Origin: Bacteroidales bacterium
GTDB taxonomy: Bacteria > Bacteroidota > Bacteroidia > Bacteroidales > F082
NCBI GenBank assembly: GCA_017632935.1
Contig: JAGBQJ010000019.1
Span: 1-64,000 of the forward strand
Reading direction: 5' to 3'
DNA: 64,000 bases
The position numbers and the translations under genes are program-made. The notes below the pieces were generated by a model, which was given only the letters and a program-made list of their open reading frames with translations, did not search any database and was not told where the DNA came from. Below are positions 37,579 to 46,350 of this stretch, one piece after another. How positions within the stretch are numbered: position 1 is the first letter of the stretch; each line of letters begins with the position of its first letter.

Positions 37579-37674
37579 GTCGCTTTGCGTCATTGCGAGG
37601 AGGTACGACGAAGCAATCCAGAAAATCATGTTTTGCTCTGGATTGCTTCGTCACTGCGTTCCTCGCAATGACGT
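37579..37674. repeat. Inverted pair of REP family 2 elements (REPIN)
   Basis: A forward copy (37579-37622) and an inverted copy (37636-37674) lie between convergent genes. The inverted copy forms the last codons and stop of the EamA transporter gene. Confidence 0.85.
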
Positions 37675-39345: not shown

Positions 39346-39353
39346 TATTTTTG
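39346..39353 (+). promoter_or_regulatory. -7 promoter box TATTTTTG for the membrane AraC regulator
   Basis: This exact TAnnTTTG match has a predicted transcript start near 39360. It excludes a TTG start at 39351 and leaves ATG 39363 (nearly leaderless) or ATG 39381. Confidence 0.65.
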
Positions 39354-39380: not shown

Positions 39381-41102
39381 ATGAAAGCATCACGCATCAT
39401 CATATCATTCTTTGTTCTGGCTTTCATGCTGTTAGGCTGCACGGGCGGTGGTTCTTCCGACTCGGGTGGAGGTCGCGTCGCGCAACCTTCCGACACGCTC
39501 TACACCCAGGAAGCGGCTATGGAAGCCTACGCCTTCGACCCCGACAGAGCCCTGCTGATTATCGACTCGGCTGAAATCGTGGGTAACATGTCGGCTGTTG
39601 ATGCCGACGTGCTGCGGGCCAAGGTGTATTCATGGACGTGCGAGGAGATGAACTACGACACCGCCATCCTGATTGGCGAAAGGCTGATGCAGCATAAAAC
39701 TGTTGTGGAGAATGCTGATTTGCAGGAAGATGTGCTTGAAATCCTGCTGAATGCCTGTCGGTTGAGGAAAGACTATGAGCAGGCTCTGCATTGGGCTTCC
39801 GAATTGGAAGACATCTATCTCAGCCGAGGCGAGACGACGGAAGCCCTGCGCAACGATGCCGAGATAGGCACGTTGCTCATCCGTATCGGTCAGCAGGAGG
39901 AAGGCTTTGCAAAGGTCGACTCTGTGGTTGGGCAGCTTGAAGGCAAACGGAAATTCAACGAAATGGATGCCATGATTGTCGCCTTGAAGCGCAAGGCAGA
40001 GATTTGCATCGGAAAAGAACGCTTCGCCGAGGTGATTCCTGCCGCCCAGCGTATGCTCGACCTGCTTGACGACTATGAACATCACGCCGACAGCTACCAC
40101 GACGGCACCATACGCGAGCCTGTGGAGGCCGAACGCCCCGAATACATCGGTTTCTACCGAGGCAAAGCATACGGCTACTTGGCGGCAGCCTACGCTATGT
40201 TGGACGAAAGCGCAGAGGCGCGGGAATATCTTGCCCTCTACGACCAGACGGTTGCCGGACAAAGCCTCACCGGTCGTTTCATGATAGCCCCGACGTTGAG
40301 AAAACTCGGAGAGTATGACCGCGTTTGGGCCATCTACGATGAAGTGGAACGACAGTTGGGCACCGACACGGTGAACGCGAATTACGTTGAGATTCTCCGT
40401 GGCCGAGCCGAGATCCTTGATGCGGAAGGCCGCCGCGATGCATCGAAAGCCTATTGGAAGCGATATGCCGCGCTTAACACGCAACTCAATGAAAACGTGT
40501 TGCAGGGCAAAGCCCACCTTTACGCCGCACGATACCATTCCTTGGAGCAGCAGCGCGAGATTGAACGGAAGACCGCCCACATCCGCACCATACACCGCCT
40601 AATGATGGCCGTGGTTTTGGTCTTGCTGATTACGATGGCCTTTTCCGTCTATATCTTATACCAAAAGCGCAAGCTGGCCGAGAAAAACGCCGCAATGGTG
40701 AAGTTGATTGACGAAAGGGAGGAACAAAACCAGCAAAAGGCCAGTCGTATGGAGGATAATGGAGACGAGTTCGCCTTGTTCGCTCAGATGGAAAACCGCA
40801 TCCGAGCGGAACGCCTCTATGCCGACCAGGGCATCCAACGGGACGAAATCGCCGAGGTGCTTGGCATGAAGCGCGAAACCATCAACCAGCTTCTCAACAG
40901 ATTTGCCGGGGGCATCTCCATTCCTGCCTATCTCAACAACATCCGTCTCTCCGAGGCTTGCAAGATGCTCCGCGAGCAGCCCGAGGCCACCGTGTCTTCC
41001 GTGGCCGACCAGGTGGGGCTTACCCCACGCAACCTGCAGCGGCTTTTCCGCGAACAATACGGCATGAGTCCCTCCGAATACCGGATTTCCCACAAACCCT
41101 AG
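39381..41102 (+). CDS. Membrane-spanning TPR-containing AraC-family regulator with lipoprotein-type signal
   Basis: This 573-residue protein begins with a lipobox signal (MKASRIIISFFVLAFMLLGC, Cys20). A helical TPR-like region follows (about 40-400; repeats such as ALHWASELEDIYLSRGE and GKAYGYLAAAYAMLDESAEAREYL). One membrane helix lies at about 408-428 (AVVLVLLITMAFSVYIL), then a short coiled coil. The C-terminal AraC HTH (about 480-573) has IAEVLGMKRETINQLLNRF and SVADQVGLTPRNLQRLFREQYGMSPSEYR. The likely topology puts the TPR sensor in the periplasm and the DNA-binding domain in the cytoplasm, with no kinase. Repeated half-sites at its 3' end and again at 43.66 kb are its probable targets. 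ATG 39363 would add six residues. Confidence 0.85.
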   Translation: MKASRIIISFFVLAFMLLGCTGGGSSDSGGGRVAQPSDTLYTQEAAMEAYAFDPDRALLIIDSAEIVGNMSAVDADVLRAKVYSWTCEEMNYDTAILIGERLMQHKTVVENADLQEDVLEILLNACRLRKDYEQALHWASELEDIYLSRGETTEALRNDAEIGTLLIRIGQQEEGFAKVDSVVGQLEGKRKFNEMDAMIVALKRKAEICIGKERFAEVIPAAQRMLDLLDDYEHHADSYHDGTIREPVEAERPEYIGFYRGKAYGYLAAAYAMLDESAEAREYLALYDQTVAGQSLTGRFMIAPTLRKLGEYDRVWAIYDEVERQLGTDTVNANYVEILRGRAEILDAEGRRDASKAYWKRYAALNTQLNENVLQGKAHLYAARYHSLEQQREIERKTAHIRTIHRLMMAVVLVLLITMAFSVYILYQKRKLAEKNAAMVKLIDEREEQNQQKASRMEDNGDEFALFAQMENRIRAERLYADQGIQRDEIAEVLGMKRETINQLLNRFAGGISIPAYLNNIRLSEACKMLREQPEATVSSVADQVGLTPRNLQRLFREQYGMSPSEYRISHKP

Positions 41103-41111
41103 TACACACCT

Positions 41112-41168
41112 GCGACAAAACGGCCTGCGCATAGCGACAATTTGGCGAAAAGCCAAATTGTCGCTATG
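41112..41168 (+). promoter_or_regulatory. Putative AraC operator array, copy 1
   Basis: Half-site GCGACAAAACGGC (41112-41124) is followed 22 bp later by GCGACAATTTGGC (41134-41146). The latter forms a 17-bp-arm palindrome (41130-41168, loop GAAAA). The palindrome core ends 34 bp before the TACTTTTG box. It lies 10 bp after the regulator's stop codon. Confidence 0.7.
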
Positions 41169-41197
41169 CTTTTATTATATAAATGTGTGCTATAGCG

Positions 41198-41205
41198 TAC
41201 TTTTG
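41198..41205 (+). promoter_or_regulatory. -7 promoter box TACTTTTG, module 1
   Basis: This exact TAnnTTTG match at a fixed 34-bp distance from the operator palindrome drives the 70-residue protein, the 48-residue peptide and the fimbrillin-like lipoprotein. Confidence 0.7.
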
Positions 41206-41230
41206 CGCCTCGATTTTTTAAGTATAGCGT

Positions 41231-41443
41231 ATGTCTCTATCATCCTTTTTTCGCAAGTTGAGGTATGGTTCCTACAATGGTTCCAGCAATGCAGCGATTT
41301 ATGAACAAATCGCACAAAGCAAAAATGTGTTGCCGCAGCATGTCTATGAAATCGCACATGGGAAAAAGCCGCAGACGCGAGAAGACGAAACCATCTTTGA
41401 GGAATTGATGGCATTGGGCATCATCGTAAACACGTATGTTTAA
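41231..41443 (+). CDS. Small conserved-looking protein, 70 residues, unknown function
   Basis: MSLSSFFRKLRYGSYNGSSN begins a short soluble protein without signal peptide. Residues 22-60 look like a helical bundle with YEQIAQSKNVLPQHVYEIAHGKKPQTRED and end in LMALGIIVNTYV. The VYEIAHGK motif gives the impression of a small HTH-like or adaptor fold, but no family is recognised. It is the first gene after the operator-controlled promoter, 25 bp downstream of the -7 box, and no equivalent occurs in module 2. It may serve regulation of the downstream surface genes. Confidence 0.7.
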   Translation: MSLSSFFRKLRYGSYNGSSNAAIYEQIAQSKNVLPQHVYEIAHGKKPQTREDETIFEELMALGIIVNTYV

Positions 41444-41456
41444 ATCATAAATCCCG

Positions 41457-41529
41457 AAATGCAAAGCATTAGACGAAGTCAAATCTTGAATTTTGAATTT
41501 TAAATCTTTAAATCTTTAAATCTAACTCT
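41457..41529. repeat. Dispersed intergenic repeat (CGAAATGCAAAGCATTAGACGAAGTC + AAATCTTT tract)
   Basis: GAAATGCAAAGCATTAGACG followed by AAGTCAAATCTTGAA and AT-rich 8-mers recurs almost identically at 43790-43885, before the other module's first gene. Confidence 0.75.
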
Positions 41530-41532
41530 CAA

Positions 41533-41679
41533 ATGATGAAAAACACAAACAAACGCTATGAGGCTCCCAAGGCGGAAGTCATAGTCATCGAAAGCCAAGG
41601 CGTGCTCTGCGCGTCGGGCGGCAGTGCTTCAGGCGCGGGAATTAACGGAATGAACAGCGGTAGCACCTACGGCTGGTAA
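41533..41679 (+). CDS. 48-residue peptide with conserved YEAPKAEVIVIESQGVLCASGG-type sequence
   Basis: This short gene encodes MMKNTNKRYEAPKAEVIVIE, then SQGVLCASGG (one Cys, residue 26) and a Gly/Ser/Asn-rich tail ending YGW. No classical signal peptide is present. Peptides of this layout (YE-P-AEV...VLCASG...W) are, to my knowledge, common but uncharacterised in Bacteroidales, often beside fimbrillin-type genes. The leader-like first half and Gly/Ser-rich second half recall RiPP precursors, but no modifying enzyme lies nearby. Start codons at 41533 and 41536 are both possible. It is followed 5-23 bp later by the lipoprotein gene. Confidence 0.75.
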   Translation: MMKNTNKRYEAPKAEVIVIESQGVLCASGGSASGAGINGMNSGSTYGW

Positions 41680-41702
41680 AACAAATGAAAAGAGAACAAA
41701 CC

Positions 41703-43361
41703 ATGAAGAAATCATTCGCGATCATCGCGCTGGCGGCATTGGTGATGCTGGCCGGCTGCAAGAAGAACGACCCCAAACCGAACGGCACCAGACTGATTGC
41801 CGGCATCGAGAAACACAAGAGCGACAGCAAGACCTCGCTTGACGGCACCATCATCAAATGGAGCGAGAGCGACAAGCTGTACGTCAACAACGGCACCACT
41901 CCGGCCACCTTCACCCTCGTTTCGGGCGCAGGGACAACCACGGGCGAGTTTGCCACCACGGGCGAATACACCTTCGCCGCCGAGAACAACGTGGCCGTGT
42001 ATCCCAACAATTACGTCAGCGGCCTCGACAACACCACGGTGACGATGACGCTTCCCGCCGTGCAGACGGCCTCGGGCGCGGGCACCTTCGGCAACGGCGC
42101 CAACCCGATGATGGGCACCTTCAGCGACATGGACAACCTTACGCTCACCAGCCTTTGCGGCGTGCTGTGCCTGCAGCTGACGGGTAATGCTCACATCACC
42201 GCCATCGAGATTGTGGGCGGCCCGGACGACAAGCTGAACGGCACGTTCACGGTGGACTACATGAATCCTGAGCCCACCTATCCAACAGAAGGCACGAACA
42301 CCGTGAGACTGAACTTCACGGAAACGGTCACGCTGACCCTTGAGGCCCAGAAGTTCTACGTGGTGGTTCCCGCCGGCACCCTCCACGGCTTCACGATGAA
42401 GGTGTATGACGGCGACAACGAGATCTTCAGCAAATCGACCGCCAACGAGGTTCCCGTGTATGTCAACACATTGAGCACGATGGTTCCTGTTGAGGTCAAT
42501 CCTTACGCCGTCCCGCTCACCCTTGAGGCCCTCTCGGGCGGCACTATCGTGGTGTATGATCCGCAGTCGGGCATGCAGTACACACTGAACGGTGGTGCTA
42601 AGCAGACCATGAGCGGCAACACAGAAATCAACGTATCCCTGGGCGACAAGGTGCAATTCTACGGCAACGGCACCTCCATCGCCTCCTATCTAGGTACAAT
42701 GATTACTGGCGGTACGGCTGATGTGAAGGTGTACGGCAACATCATGAGCCTGGTGGATGAGGAAAATTTCGCCACGGCCACCACACTGCTGGAGACTTAT
42801 ACTTTCTATAGGCTTTTCAATAACTACGACCACCTCACCGATGCGAGCGGACTGCTGCTGCCTGCTACAACGCTGGCTTCTGCTAATTATTGCTATGCTG
42901 AAATGTTCAGCTACTGCGACAACCTGGTTGCTGGACCTTCCGAGTTGCCCGCCACGACGTTGTCCCCCAGGTGTTACCAAGCAATGTTCTTATACTGCTC
43001 TTCCCTTACCGTTGCCCCTATTCTGCCAGCCACAACGCTGGAAGGTTATTGTTATTTTCAGATGTTCAGATTCTGCACAAGCTTGACAGAGGCCCCCGTG
43101 CTGCCCGCCCCTGAGCTGACTAGTAATTGCTATCGTGAAATGTTTTCAAGCTGCAGCAGCCTGAACAGCATCACCTGCCTCGCCACTTCTGCAATCAATT
43201 CAAGTAACAGCACCTTCAACTGGGTGATTGGTGTGGCCTCTGGCGGCACCTTCACCAAAGCCAGCGGCGCAAATGTTTCAACCGACGCAGGTGGCAGTGG
43301 CTCAACCTGGCCCAGGGGCATCCGCGGCATCCCCGAAGGCTGGATGGTCAACGATCAATAA
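41703..43361 (+). CDS. Fimbrillin-like lipoprotein with BspA-like cysteine/leucine repeats
   Basis: This 552-residue exported lipoprotein has the lipobox MLAGC (Cys19). Residues 20-270 resemble fimbrillin (Mfa-like/FimA) domains: KTSLDGTIIKWSESDKLYVNNGT, NNVAVYPNNYVSG, MGTFSDMDNLTLTSLCGVLCLQL. The C-terminal third holds repeats of about 24-27 residues (LLPATTLAS-YCYAEMFSYCDNLVAGP, ELPATTLSPRCYQAMFLYCSSLTVAPILPATTLEGYCYFQMF), the BspA/surface LRR type. It is predicted to be displayed on the surface or form a filament tip. ATG 41703 begins the signal; ATG 41685 adds six residues. A strong terminator follows. Confidence 0.85.
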   Translation: MKKSFAIIALAALVMLAGCKKNDPKPNGTRLIAGIEKHKSDSKTSLDGTIIKWSESDKLYVNNGTTPATFTLVSGAGTTTGEFATTGEYTFAAENNVAVYPNNYVSGLDNTTVTMTLPAVQTASGAGTFGNGANPMMGTFSDMDNLTLTSLCGVLCLQLTGNAHITAIEIVGGPDDKLNGTFTVDYMNPEPTYPTEGTNTVRLNFTETVTLTLEAQKFYVVVPAGTLHGFTMKVYDGDNEIFSKSTANEVPVYVNTLSTMVPVEVNPYAVPLTLEALSGGTIVVYDPQSGMQYTLNGGAKQTMSGNTEINVSLGDKVQFYGNGTSIASYLGTMITGGTADVKVYGNIMSLVDEENFATATTLLETYTFYRLFNNYDHLTDASGLLLPATTLASANYCYAEMFSYCDNLVAGPSELPATTLSPRCYQAMFLYCSSLTVAPILPATTLEGYCYFQMFRFCTSLTEAPVLPAPELTSNCYREMFSSCSSLNSITCLATSAINSSNSTFNWVIGVASGGTFTKASGANVSTDAGGSGSTWPRGIRGIPEGWMVNDQ

Positions 43362-43393
43362 CCTGACGACCATCGTCTAAAACTCAAAACCAA

Positions 43394-43426
43394 GGGCGGC
43401 CATCATCCGATGGTCGCCTTTTTTTC
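43394..43426 (+). terminator. Intrinsic terminator after module 1
   Basis: GGGCGGCCATC-ATCC-GATGGTCGCC followed by TTTTTTT. The same hairpin sequence is repeated at 46912-46945. Confidence 0.85.
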
Positions 43427-43439
43427 TGTTGCAAGCCCG

Positions 43440-43625
43440 TTACCGCTTCGCGCCATCCCCCTCCGAGAGGGAGTGCCCGCAGGGCGGGGGAGTCCTACAG
43501 CCGCTTGGCGCCTGACTGCCGCTTCGCGTCATCGCGAGGGACGTCATTGACTACGTCGAATCAGAGATTTGCGAGGCACGAAGCAAAACGAAGCGATCCA
43601 GGCATGGAAGTTTTTGACTTGGCTT
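43440..43625. repeat. Degenerate REP-like cluster
   Basis: It contains CATCCCCCTCCGAGAGGGAG / GGGCGGGGGAG dyads, then a decayed family 2 REP (GCGTCATCGCGAGGGACG ... GCGAAGCGATCCAGG variants). No gene was found between 43362 and 43893. Confidence 0.6.
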
Positions 43626-43659
43626 GACCGCTTTCCCTTCAAACTACAGTCCCCACATC

Positions 43660-43733
43660 TGCGACAAAACGGCTTTTTCATGCGATAATTTGGCTTTTTA
43701 TATGCGACAATTTGGCTTTTCGCCAAATTGTCG
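43660..43733 (+). promoter_or_regulatory. Putative AraC operator array, copy 2
   Basis: Half-sites GCGACAAAACGGC (43660), GCGATAATTTGGC (43681) and GCGACAATTTGGC (43703) lie 21 and 22 bp apart. The last is paired with GCCAAATTGTCGC (43721-43733) around TTTTC. The array ends 34 bp before the TACTTTTG box, as in copy 1. Confidence 0.72.
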
Positions 43734-43766
43734 CTATGCTATTATTATAATAATGTGTGCTTTACC

Positions 43767-43774
43767 GTACTTTT
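43767..43774 (+). promoter_or_regulatory. -7 promoter box TACTTTTG, module 2
   Basis: This is an exact TAnnTTTG match at the same operator distance as in module 1. The two cassettes also share the ATAATGTGTGCT-like sequence between operator and box. Confidence 0.7.
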
Positions 43775-43893
43775 GCGGCTCATTTCTTGAAGACGAAGTC
43801 AAATCTTGAAATGCAAAGCATTAGACGAAGTCAAATCTTGAAATTTTGAAATCTTGAAATCATAAATCTTTAATCTTTAAATCACTTAAACTA

Positions 43894-44193
43894 ATGACCA
43901 ACAAAAAAACAATGAAAACCATCGTGTTTTCACTCGGGCTGGCAGCCATGACGCTGACAGCCACCAACCTGAACGCACAAAACCGTCCCGGTGGCATGTT
44001 TGGCAGCAACCAATCCAAAGAAGCTTCCCAAGGCGGACTGATGAAAAACAGCACCCGTGGTGTCGTTACTATCAATGACGATGGCTACATCAACAACCAA
44101 GGCATCGGCCAAGAAGCCCCGTTGGGCAGCGGCCTTTTGATTCTGCTGGGCGCTGGCCTCGGCTATGTTGCACTTAAAAAGAAGGAGGACTAA
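43894..44193 (+). CDS. Small exported protein with C-terminal anchor-like tail
   Basis: This 99-residue protein has an N-terminal signal peptide (MKTIVFSLGLAAMTLTATNLNAQ from the second ATG at 43912). A short Gly/Asn/Ser-rich middle (RPGGMFGSNQSKEASQGG; INDDGYINNQGIGQ) follows. The C-terminus is tripartite: EAPLGSG, a hydrophobic helix LLILLGAGLGYVAL and a KKKED end. That layout recalls sortase/exosortase-like sorting signals, but no such enzyme is in the window. It may instead be a simple C-terminal membrane anchor. It is the first gene of module 2 and lies 3 bp before the lipoprotein gene. Confidence 0.78.
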   Translation: MTNKKTMKTIVFSLGLAAMTLTATNLNAQNRPGGMFGSNQSKEASQGGLMKNSTRGVVTINDDGYINNQGIGQEAPLGSGLLILLGAGLGYVALKKKED

Positions 44194-44196
44194 GCC

Positions 44197-46350
44197 ATGA
44201 GAAGAATGACCTATTTTGTGATGGCATTGGCTTTGGTCTTTGGCCTTACGCAGTGCAAAAAAGAGCAACCTGCTTCCCAAAACGAACCTGATGGCGTATA
44301 CATCACCCTCACCTTGGATGGTGGCAACAGCAATTCAAGGGTAAATGTTGACCCGACTGGTGACAACGGACAGTATAACTATGCCCCCGTTGTGTTTGAG
44401 GAAGGCGACGTGATTTATGTAGGCTACGGCGGCAGTTATGTTGGCCAGTTGACCTGTCAAAGCGACAACACTACATTCAGCGGTAACATTAATGTCACTG
44501 AAGAACAGGCAACCCAACCTTTGGATTTATACTTCCTCGGTGGAACACGTTTCGCTAACCCGGCAATTGATGGTAATACAGCCACATTGTCGATTACTGA
44601 CCAAACCGCTTCATATCCCGTGATTTCATACGCACGCTCAACATATAAAAACGGTTCGCATCATGCCATGCTGAAGAACAAATGTTCCATCATGAAGTTT
44701 GATGTGACTACGCCTTCCGAGGCAGCCATATGCATTACGGGTATGAATAATAAGGTGACCGTTGATTTCACCAACCCGACTGGCGCCGACAATGGCTTCA
44801 GCTACGACCAAGTTGAGGGTGGTTTGATTAAGATGCCAGGTCAGGCTGGCAGCGGCGAGAAGACTTATTGGGCCATCGTCCTGCCACAAGACGAATTGGA
44901 AGCAGGCCCATACGGCACGGCCTACAGCGAAGACCACAGCTATACCGGCCAACGCCCCGCATTGTCGGCCATTGGGCTTAACGAGTATCACTCCGAAAGT
45001 GTCGCCATGACTGTGAACAACACCGTGATTTGGGACAACTCTGTCATCAGCGGTATCGATATCCATTCCTACGATGGACAACCGGTAACCATGGACGGCA
45101 TATCTGTGAGAGGGGAAGGGGAGCCTATTGCCGAATTTAATTGGAGCAGTATAACACTTGACGGTGGCCGTCTCATTTTCTCCGCCCCCAGCGGGTATGG
45201 CTTCACGAGGATTGAAATCGCCAGCAATGATGAAATATATGGTGACCCCGATGGTTGGAATATAGAAAGCGTAGAGGAATGGTGGGATCAAACGTTTTTA
45301 TTGGTATGGAGCGACGACACGCCGGCTTCAACAGTAACGCTGCCTGCATATGTTCATATCAACGTTTCTGGGATTACATTCACTTTGGGAAAAGTCGCCG
45401 CGCCTACGCCACCCACTCCTACTCCACCGACGGAAGGTGTTGGCAGTTTGATTTACGACAACGATAATTACCCCATTGCCATGGTTGCCTATGTGGGCGA
45501 AGATTATACCTTGGCCATCAGACTTTATGACTGGGTGACTATGTATGATCCGGAATCTGAACCCATAACCAACTTTTCTTGGGGTGATGCGAATTCTATG
45601 ATTCAAAGTTACAATAATCATACAGGTGAAGCATGGCGTCTGCCCACCGAGGCAGAGTGGACAAAAATGTTTCTTGCTTGCGGATGCAGCTTTGATGAAT
45701 GGTCAGAAAGATGGAATTGCGATGAGTTAATGACAAAGTTAAATATTGCTGGCGGTGAGCCTTTGTATAAGGATTTGGATAATGATTATATACATTTTTA
45801 TTATTGGACAGGTACGGAAGGCGATTTTTCATCTTTGGCAAAGGCAGTAGATTTCCATAAAAGTGACGGGCATAAAATAGCAAGTTTTGTGAATCAAAGC
45901 ACATGGGATGAATACCTTGTCCGCCCCGTTATCCAAATTGGAGGCACAGCACCAGTAACCCCTGACGTGACATGGAATACTGCCTACAACTTTAATTGTA
46001 ATTCACCTTATGAAAATGGTGGCATTACAGCAACGCTCACTGCTGGCACTGGAAACGGTAAGGCTACTTGGAATTCCCAACGTGGTTTGGAGTTAAAGAG
46101 TGGAGTGGATTATTATGATACGTACTATCCTTCTACATTAACCTTCTCTTACAATTCTGGTAATATAACGAAGATTGAGATTACATACGACAATAATTAT
46201 ACTGGTTTAATCCCTTCTGGCTGGAGTGATGACGGGTCTAAACTTACATGGAACGGTACCGCTTCATCTGTAACAATAATGTCCCCTGATAACACTGATC
46301 AACAATGGATTTGGCTTAATATTAGAAAGGTCGAGTTCTACGTGGAATAA
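44197..46350 (+). CDS. Fimbrillin-like multidomain surface lipoprotein
   Basis: This 717-residue lipoprotein has lipobox FGLTQC (Cys20). The N-terminal half resembles a fimbrillin-type domain: VYITLTLDGGNSNSRVNVDP, VFEEGDVIYVGYGG, HHAMLKNKCSIMKFDVTTPSEAAICITGMNNKVTVDF. A Pro/Thr linker (PTPPTPTPPTEGVG, near residue 405) leads to a FISUMP/DUF1566-like module with AWRLPTEAEWTKMFLACGCSFDEW. A final beta domain follows, with ITKIEITYDNNYTGLIP and IWLNIRKVEFYVE. It is probably surface-exposed and possibly adhesive. It is the main product of operator module 2, and a strong terminator follows. Confidence 0.85.
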   Translation: MRRMTYFVMALALVFGLTQCKKEQPASQNEPDGVYITLTLDGGNSNSRVNVDPTGDNGQYNYAPVVFEEGDVIYVGYGGSYVGQLTCQSDNTTFSGNINVTEEQATQPLDLYFLGGTRFANPAIDGNTATLSITDQTASYPVISYARSTYKNGSHHAMLKNKCSIMKFDVTTPSEAAICITGMNNKVTVDFTNPTGADNGFSYDQVEGGLIKMPGQAGSGEKTYWAIVLPQDELEAGPYGTAYSEDHSYTGQRPALSAIGLNEYHSESVAMTVNNTVIWDNSVISGIDIHSYDGQPVTMDGISVRGEGEPIAEFNWSSITLDGGRLIFSAPSGYGFTRIEIASNDEIYGDPDGWNIESVEEWWDQTFLLVWSDDTPASTVTLPAYVHINVSGITFTLGKVAAPTPPTPTPPTEGVGSLIYDNDNYPIAMVAYVGEDYTLAIRLYDWVTMYDPESEPITNFSWGDANSMIQSYNNHTGEAWRLPTEAEWTKMFLACGCSFDEWSERWNCDELMTKLNIAGGEPLYKDLDNDYIHFYYWTGTEGDFSSLAKAVDFHKSDGHKIASFVNQSTWDEYLVRPVIQIGGTAPVTPDVTWNTAYNFNCNSPYENGGITATLTAGTGNGKATWNSQRGLELKSGVDYYDTYYPSTLTFSYNSGNITKIEITYDNNYTGLIPSGWSDDGSKLTWNGTASSVTIMSPDNTDQQWIWLNIRKVEFYVE

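Follow-up and report, generated by a model that had tools for sequence, protein, structure and literature searches.

An AraC-type membrane regulator and two matching direct-repeat cassettes in an uncultured Bacteroidales bacterium: a putative one-component envelope sensor

Organization of the locus

In this study, we revisited a stretch of 64 000 nucleotides from a Bacteroidales bacterium (assembly GCA_017632935.1, contig JAGBQJ010000019.1; hereafter the window), in which an earlier note had described a membrane AraC-type regulator and two matching operator–promoter cassettes. The features of this locus are as follows.

39346–39353, forward strand: promoter-like box TATTTTTG before the regulator gene
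39381–41102, forward strand: regulator, 573 aa, with lipobox, sensor region, membrane helix and AraC-type helix–turn–helix (HTH) pair
41112–41124, forward strand: cassette 1, outer half-site (GCGACAAAACGGC), position −88; poor score with the relatives' matrix (see below)
41134–41146, forward strand: cassette 1, half-site (GCGACAATTTGGC), slot −66
41152–41164, reverse strand: cassette 1, inverted half-site, within a palindrome with 18-bp arms (41129–41169)
41198–41205, forward strand: cassette 1, promoter-like box TACTTTTG
41231–41443, forward strand: 70-aa gene, the first one past cassette 1, with a homologue at the corresponding position in genome G171 (69 %)
41533–41679, forward strand: 48-aa peptide gene
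41685–43361, forward strand: 558-aa putative lipoprotein (LAGC by eye)
43661–43673, forward strand: cassette 2, half-site, position −109
43682–43694, forward strand: cassette 2, half-site with one mismatch, position −88
43704–43716, forward strand: cassette 2, half-site, slot −66
43722–43734, reverse strand: cassette 2, inverted half-site, loop TTTTC
43768–43775, forward strand: cassette 2, promoter-like box TACTTTTG
43894–44193, forward strand: 99-aa protein, judged by eye to be secreted; its C-terminal segment (APLGSG...KKKED) is hydrophobic
44197–46350, forward strand: 717-aa protein with a signal-like N terminus; LTQC, no canonical lipobox

The 13-mer GCGACAAnnnGGC is found exactly at 41112, 41134, 43661 and 43704 and with one mismatch at 43682, always on the forward strand, and the half-sites start 22 bp apart in cassette 1 and 21 and 22 bp apart in cassette 2. 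In both cassettes the inverted copy starts 18 bp past the start of the last direct half-site, and its last base lies 34 before the first base of TACTTTTG (41198 and 43768). The arms of cassette 1 form a perfect 18-bp inverted repeat around a 5-base loop, and the loops of the two palindromes, GAAAA in cassette 1 and TTTTC in cassette 2, are mutual reverse complements. The stop codon of the regulator gene ends at 41102 and the first half-site starts 10 bp on, at 41112. The half-site spacings, the constant distance between palindrome and box and the offset from the regulator's stop are thus all as the earlier note had given them, and it is confirmed that the two cassettes match each other. The lipobox, the phase of the arrays in relatives and the mosaic make-up of the regulator, described below, go beyond that note. 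By eye, no TTTG-type −33 element was seen at the promoter of either cassette and no half-site was recognised at the regulator's own box.

The genes behind the cassettes had been proposed to form two surface-protein modules. In the window this description fits the putative lipoproteins and secreted proteins listed above. The 70-aa gene has a partial homologue in the same place in genome G162 (98 % over residues 26–70), and homologues of the 99-aa protein follow the second cassette of G171 and a palindrome in genome G111. Among six proteins encoded beside the arrays of relatives, three had a Pfam match at E≤0.001, namely a cytidylate-kinase-like domain (locus L055), a GLUG motif (L046) and a beta-helix repeat (L078), and three had none; with a cytidylate-kinase-like protein as the target in one branch, the description does not cover the whole family.

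The regulator protein

The regulator has an N-terminal lipobox (LLGC, with Cys20), followed by a sensor region (approximately residues 34–400), a helix from about residue 408, where the strongest hydrophobic stretch of the protein starts, and an HTH pair at approximately 470–568. With 49.8 bits for HTH_18 (cut-off 33.6) and 32.2 bits for HTH_AraC (cut-off 26.6), the protein is a member of the AraC/XylS family by the Pfam cut-offs. Sites at the spacing of about 21 bp at which this family binds are present in the window and in relatives. It had been proposed that this is an AraC-type regulator with one membrane helix which acts without a kinase, and both points agree with our results: neither a histidine kinase nor a receiver domain was among the Pfam hits at E≤0.01. 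The lipobox cysteine is invariant in all eight aligned regulator proteins, and among 38 homologues a lipobox was found in 26 by script and in six more by eye; none was seen in L002, L039 or L021, and L006, L007 and L023 could be assigned neither way.

The sensor had also been described as a periplasmic TPR domain. The name TPR, however, rests on weak matches, as no TPR model exceeded its cut-off in the window protein and the TPR-like ANAPC3 model reached 17.2 bits against a cut-off of 27.2. Across the eight aligned proteins, each of five TPR models matched one protein and ANAPC3 matched three at E≤0.01. A further weak match, to the NCBIfam model NF053520 for FimS, covers residues 310–445 with 28 bits against a cut-off of 600. 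The genome encodes one other large AraC-type protein, on contig 10; its sensor is different, and no array was seen there by eye.

Rarity of the half-sites and nature of the palindrome

The window's own genome comprises 2.86 Mb and is 92 % complete. With at most one mismatch, GCCAAATTGTCGC is found at 11 places in these 2.86 Mb, and a reversed control pattern at two. Five of the 11 places lie in the two cassettes, four of them exact, and the other six are single copies elsewhere, each with one mismatch. The search for further arrays that the earlier note had called for therefore returned, outside the two cassettes, six single copies and no paired ones. In the genus (99 genomes), exact copies of the 13-mer occur 27 times, spread over 20 genomes, and the reversed control never occurs; paired copies are confined to G000, G162 and G111, and no second copy was seen around the single 13-mers in the genus genomes. 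When cassettes were compared with themselves at a lag of 20–23, the self-match gave P=0.001 for cassette 2 and P=0.058 for cassette 1, so that cassette 1, taken by itself, gives a weak repeat signal.

When 13 loci were scanned for perfect arms of at least 12, the palindrome appeared solely at the window's own locus, and the idea of a palindrome common to the orthologues was given up. The large palindrome is lineage-specific and was not found outside the window, G162 and G111. It could be argued that it ends transcription of the regulator gene as an intrinsic terminator, or is a dispersed repeat, and lies near a promoter by chance. Consistent with a terminator, the perfect 18-bp stem of cassette 1 is followed by TTTT, and the RNA folds with −32.9 kcal/mol in cassette 1 and −23.0 kcal/mol in cassette 2. 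However, the palindrome is also present before cassette 2 and in G162 and G111, places at which the regulator is not the preceding gene; in three cassettes the box lies 34 bases from it, and a hairpin with a T-run near 43390, seen by eye, already terminates module 1 before cassette 2. The dispersed repeat was rejected, since the paired copies in the window's own genome are confined to the two cassettes. Moreover, the direct sites of relatives occur without the palindrome, and this explanation would leave the direct half-sites untouched. We consider it quite unlikely.

Arrays in related genomes

Regulator matches were found at E≤1e-20 in 24 of 149 family genomes, all of them in the window's genus, at E≤1e-60 in 23 of the 99 genus genomes, and at E≤1e-15 in 9 of 393 genomes of an order-wide sample. 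Related regulators with two HTH motifs are followed by a direct-repeat array past the stop codon and then by a TAnnTTTG box, which has the variant TATTATTG in L006 and was not found by script for L019 and L022. A self-match at lag 20–23 past the stop (P≤0.05, compared with dinucleotide shuffles) was present for 16 of 21 two-HTH regulators versus 2 of 16 other homologues, counts that are non-independent as the 21 include near-identical pairs (L003/L006, L035/L037). The five two-HTH regulators without the signal are L006, L019, L022, L030 and L042; the 16 other homologues comprise 14 in which the first HTH is lost and two partial proteins, and the positives among them are L033 and L041. These control stretches lie largely in coding DNA.

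From 16 of the 21 relatives we derived a half-site matrix of 60 sites, with seeds modelled by eye, which left out the window and the more distant regulators L019, L021, L022, L023 and L043. In these relatives the site nearest the box begins at −44/−45 in all 16 and the second site at −65 to −67 in 15, while further sites lie at −86/−87 in six and at −106 to −108 in ten; 31 of 44 neighbouring sites are 20–23 bp apart. Applied to the more distant regulators, the matrix found one site in L043 and none in L021 or L023, and L021 has a repeat with other letters.

The window cassettes have sites at −66 and −88, and cassette 2 also at −109, as does G162 (−66, −88 and −109); the outer sites of the window are 1–2 bp off the relatives' positions. 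In both window cassettes the slot at −44 is occupied by the inverted arm and holds no direct site. Scored with the relatives-only matrix at slot −66 (±1), cassettes 2 and 1 rank first (12.6 bits) and third (3.4 bits) among the 50 TAnnTTTG boxes of the window, whereas slot −44 gives them ranks 50 and 49. Their ranks of 22 and 28 at −86/−87 are low because the window's outer sites are at −88. For −66 and −44 summed the ranks are 4 and 14, and for −66 and −88 summed 1 and 3, the latter a non-independent result as −88 was taken from the window itself. Among all 16-mers of the window on both strands, the −66 and −88 sites of cassette 2 hold matrix ranks 2 and 4. The regulator's own box ranks 9 at slot −66 and 3, with a score of −3.2, at slot −44. 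Slot −66 is therefore common to the window and its relatives, but the promoter-nearest slot −44 is not.

Taken from the sequences of relatives, these arrays support the pairing of regulator and array. A lack of operators beside orthologous regulators had been named as an observation that would speak against the proposed switch; instead, arrays with letters of their own follow the stops of related two-HTH regulators. As regards the form of the operator, the two matching cassettes stood, whereas the palindrome is not general, the 16 relatives in the matrix having direct repeats.

An order-wide profile search matched 23 of 247 genomes at E≤1e-30. Of the 28 loci from this search, some of which were in the profile or are truncated, four had a repeat signal at P≤0.05, so that the array as a general trait of the regulator architecture is unsupported. 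Repeats were seen by eye at L060, L061 and L066, and the same loci, as L136, L115 and L135, missed P≤0.05; for L135 the 180 bases tested stop short of most of the repeat.

Cassettes in other genomes and the origin of cassette 2

About 5 kb downstream, G171 carries a second cassette with a remnant of the regulator's sensor (78 % over residues 285–325), one half-site together with the same stretch of promoter (both by eye), and a second copy of its 71-aa gene together with a homologue of the window's 99-aa protein. This arrangement points to a tandem duplication, and cassette 2 of the window most likely arose in this way from a duplication of regulator, operator and targets after which the second regulator was lost. 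G171 has two more genes homologous to the 70-aa gene, on contigs 63 and 69, and inspection by eye showed no array ahead of either. In G165 a second array lies on the far side of the regulator, facing away from it, ahead of the gene for a 183-aa protein whose N terminus is signal-like.

In G162 the cassette is intact, and no regulator match was found at E≤1e-3 in an assembly that is 79 % complete. The contig with the flanking transporter gene ends 28 bases past the match, inside that gene, and together with the incomplete assembly this indicates that the stretch where the regulator would lie is probably missing from the assembly. In G111, which is 98 % complete, no gene matches the regulator at E≤1e-60; the flanking genes are present, with other genes at the regulator's syntenic place. 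A single palindrome precedes a 101-aa protein which is 51 % identical to the window's 99-aa protein. In the 130 bases upstream of this palindrome the best half-site has three mismatches in 10 set positions, and no box follows it. This one case would fit a cassette that decayed after loss of the regulator.

Discussion

We propose that the regulator is a one-component envelope sensor which acts through two direct-repeat arrays on lipoprotein modules, a reading to which we give a probability of roughly 70 %. It builds on the parts of the locus, their spacing, the common −66 site and the arrays past the stop in relatives, all as they appear in the sequence. Against it count the weak repeat signal of cassette 1, the mismatch with the relatives at slots −44 and −86/−87, the intact cassette of G162 with no regulator match, and the small share of order-wide loci with a repeat signal. 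We infer lipidation, membrane topology, the signal, DNA binding and activation by the regulator. In such a mechanism, a periplasmic signal, perhaps a peptide or protein, would alter the regulator dimer, the AraC domains would bind direct half-sites approximately 21–22 bp apart upstream of the two promoters, and the bound regulator would recruit RNA polymerase to the lipoprotein modules. It is also conceivable that the regulator binds the arrays yet represses, or that it requires a partner protein. Some AraC-type proteins act as repressors, and the regulator gene has its own promoter-like box. Against repression, the direct sites lie upstream of the promoter and not over the start site, and the TTTG-type −33 element was not seen by eye, though neither point is decisive. 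We regard repression or a partner as unlikely and favour activation.

Regulators of related design have been described. The hybrid two-component systems (HTCS) of Bacteroides join a periplasmic sensor to a cytoplasmic AraC-type domain, and the operators predicted for them are direct repeats spaced 21 bp on average (PMC3878776). The window regulator resembles them in its sensor and AraC-type domain and in its direct repeats at 21–22 bp, with 31 of 44 spacings at 20–23 bp in relatives. It differs in that the Pfam hits include neither a histidine kinase nor a receiver, its targets were not recognised as polysaccharide-utilisation genes, and many of the arrays contain three or more half-sites and lie after the stop of the regulator. 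Because Bacteroides HTCS also have 21-bp direct-repeat operators, the window regulator is a kinase-less variant of a known, HTCS-like direct-repeat type.

That study also describes SusR-like Bacteroides regulators, membrane one-component proteins with a periplasmic sensor and direct-repeat operators, whose sites are 67 or 77 bp apart and whose DNA-binding domain, as presented there, resembles no other known (PMC3878776). The window regulator, in contrast, is of the AraC type, with sites mostly 20–23 bp apart. FimS of Porphyromonas gingivalis has a periplasmic sensor with TPR motifs and governs surface fimbriae, but is a histidine kinase that works with a separate response regulator and spans the membrane with two helices (PMC11053733). 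The output of the window regulator is a fused AraC domain, unlike that of FimS, and its match to the FimS model is far below the 600-bit cut-off.

CadC/ToxR-type proteins are alike in broad outline, as they too unite a sensor, a membrane helix and a DNA-binding domain in a single polypeptide. In these proteins the DNA-binding part is N-terminal and belongs to the winged-helix type, whereas that of the window protein is C-terminal and of the AraC type. A literature search of titles and abstract beginnings of openly licensed papers returned no description of TPR–AraC membrane regulators with operator arrays. For membrane regulators of this little-studied class in uncultured Bacteroidales, the locus offers a readable map from regulator to operator. 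It also provides a kinase-less counterpart to the control of surface proteins by HTCS and FimS–FimR.

The comparison with G171, the nearest relative, bears on which protein binds the arrays. The regulators of the window and G171 (L031) are 74 % identical over residues 34–200 and 75 % over 201–400, but 20 % over 401–446, 19 % over 447–519 and 34 % over 520–573, and residues 520–573 are 56–59 % identical to three truncated relatives. The array of G171 repeats ATCCGATAATTTGTCC, for which the window counterpart is GCGACAATTTGGC. The two genes upstream of the regulator share 81 % DNA identity between window and G171, and the first target gene is 69 % identical; in G171 a 92-aa ORF that appears toxin-like by eye lies between the two upstream genes and the regulator. 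This suggests that the DNA-binding half of the regulator and its binding sites changed together, and we read the differences as a probable joint replacement of output half and operators in the lineage of either the window or G171. With three other HTH_18 matches in the genome, another AraC-type protein might instead bind the arrays; however, in the relatives the arrays come directly after the stop of the regulator, and between window and G171 the letters of the sites differ jointly with the HTH half; we hold binding by a protein other than the adjacent membrane regulator to be very unlikely.

Output domain and operator differ jointly while the rest of the locus is conserved, which amounts to a natural domain-swap experiment. 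A broader and more tentative proposal, which we rate as doubtful, is that these regulators form a class of transcription factors in Bacteroidales which are anchored in the envelope twice, by an acylated N terminus and by a membrane helix. At the window's locus, sensor and targets would have been kept and the membrane/DNA-binding half and half-sites replaced together, such that the DNA code of the whole local circuit would have changed and its job would not.

Truncated and helix-less forms of the regulator

Among the relatives of the AraC-type membrane regulator there is a truncated class, in which the sensor and the membrane helix are kept and, of the HTH pair, only the second HTH is retained. 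It comprises the following loci:

L008–L013, L015, L017, L018, L025–L027, L029 and L041: truncated regulator

When 13 of these loci were inspected by eye, a small conserved gene (MEKRIGTVIIGIENRE-like) was seen directly 3' of the truncated regulator in 11, and it did not directly follow the regulator in L009 and L017. In a further homologue, L007 (genome G115), the sensor runs into the HTH part within a 461-residue frame from which the membrane-helix stretch is absent; despite this, the frame is followed by a half-site array.

Inverted repeats and palindrome loops

A short inverted repeat, which differs in sequence from locus to locus, was found by eye between the last half-site and the TAnnTTTG box:

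L004, L021, L035 and L039: downstream array (GTACTCTAGTGAGTAC in L035)
L046: divergent array

In each of the window's two cassettes the palindrome has a 5-base loop. The two loops are reverse complements of each other, as would be seen if one cassette carried the spacer in flipped orientation:

41147–41151: loop, cassette 1
43717–43721: loop, cassette 2

Small secreted proteins and a dispersed repeat

Several small secreted proteins end in PLGSG or PIGSG followed by a hydrophobic stretch and then a basic tail, a C-terminal layout that resembles a sorting signal; the LPXTG_anchor model gave no more than one sub-threshold match:

43894–44193: small secreted PLGSG/PIGSG protein, window
L044, L047, L049 and L088: small secreted PLGSG/PIGSG proteins, relatives

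Positions 37600–37674 of the window are a dispersed repeat, and a stretch that looks similar lies upstream of cassette 2, near 43525–43610. A query from the flank of the regulator locus gave 51 matches in G111 and 20 in G162, two related genomes, and almost every match fell in the first ~75 bases of the query.
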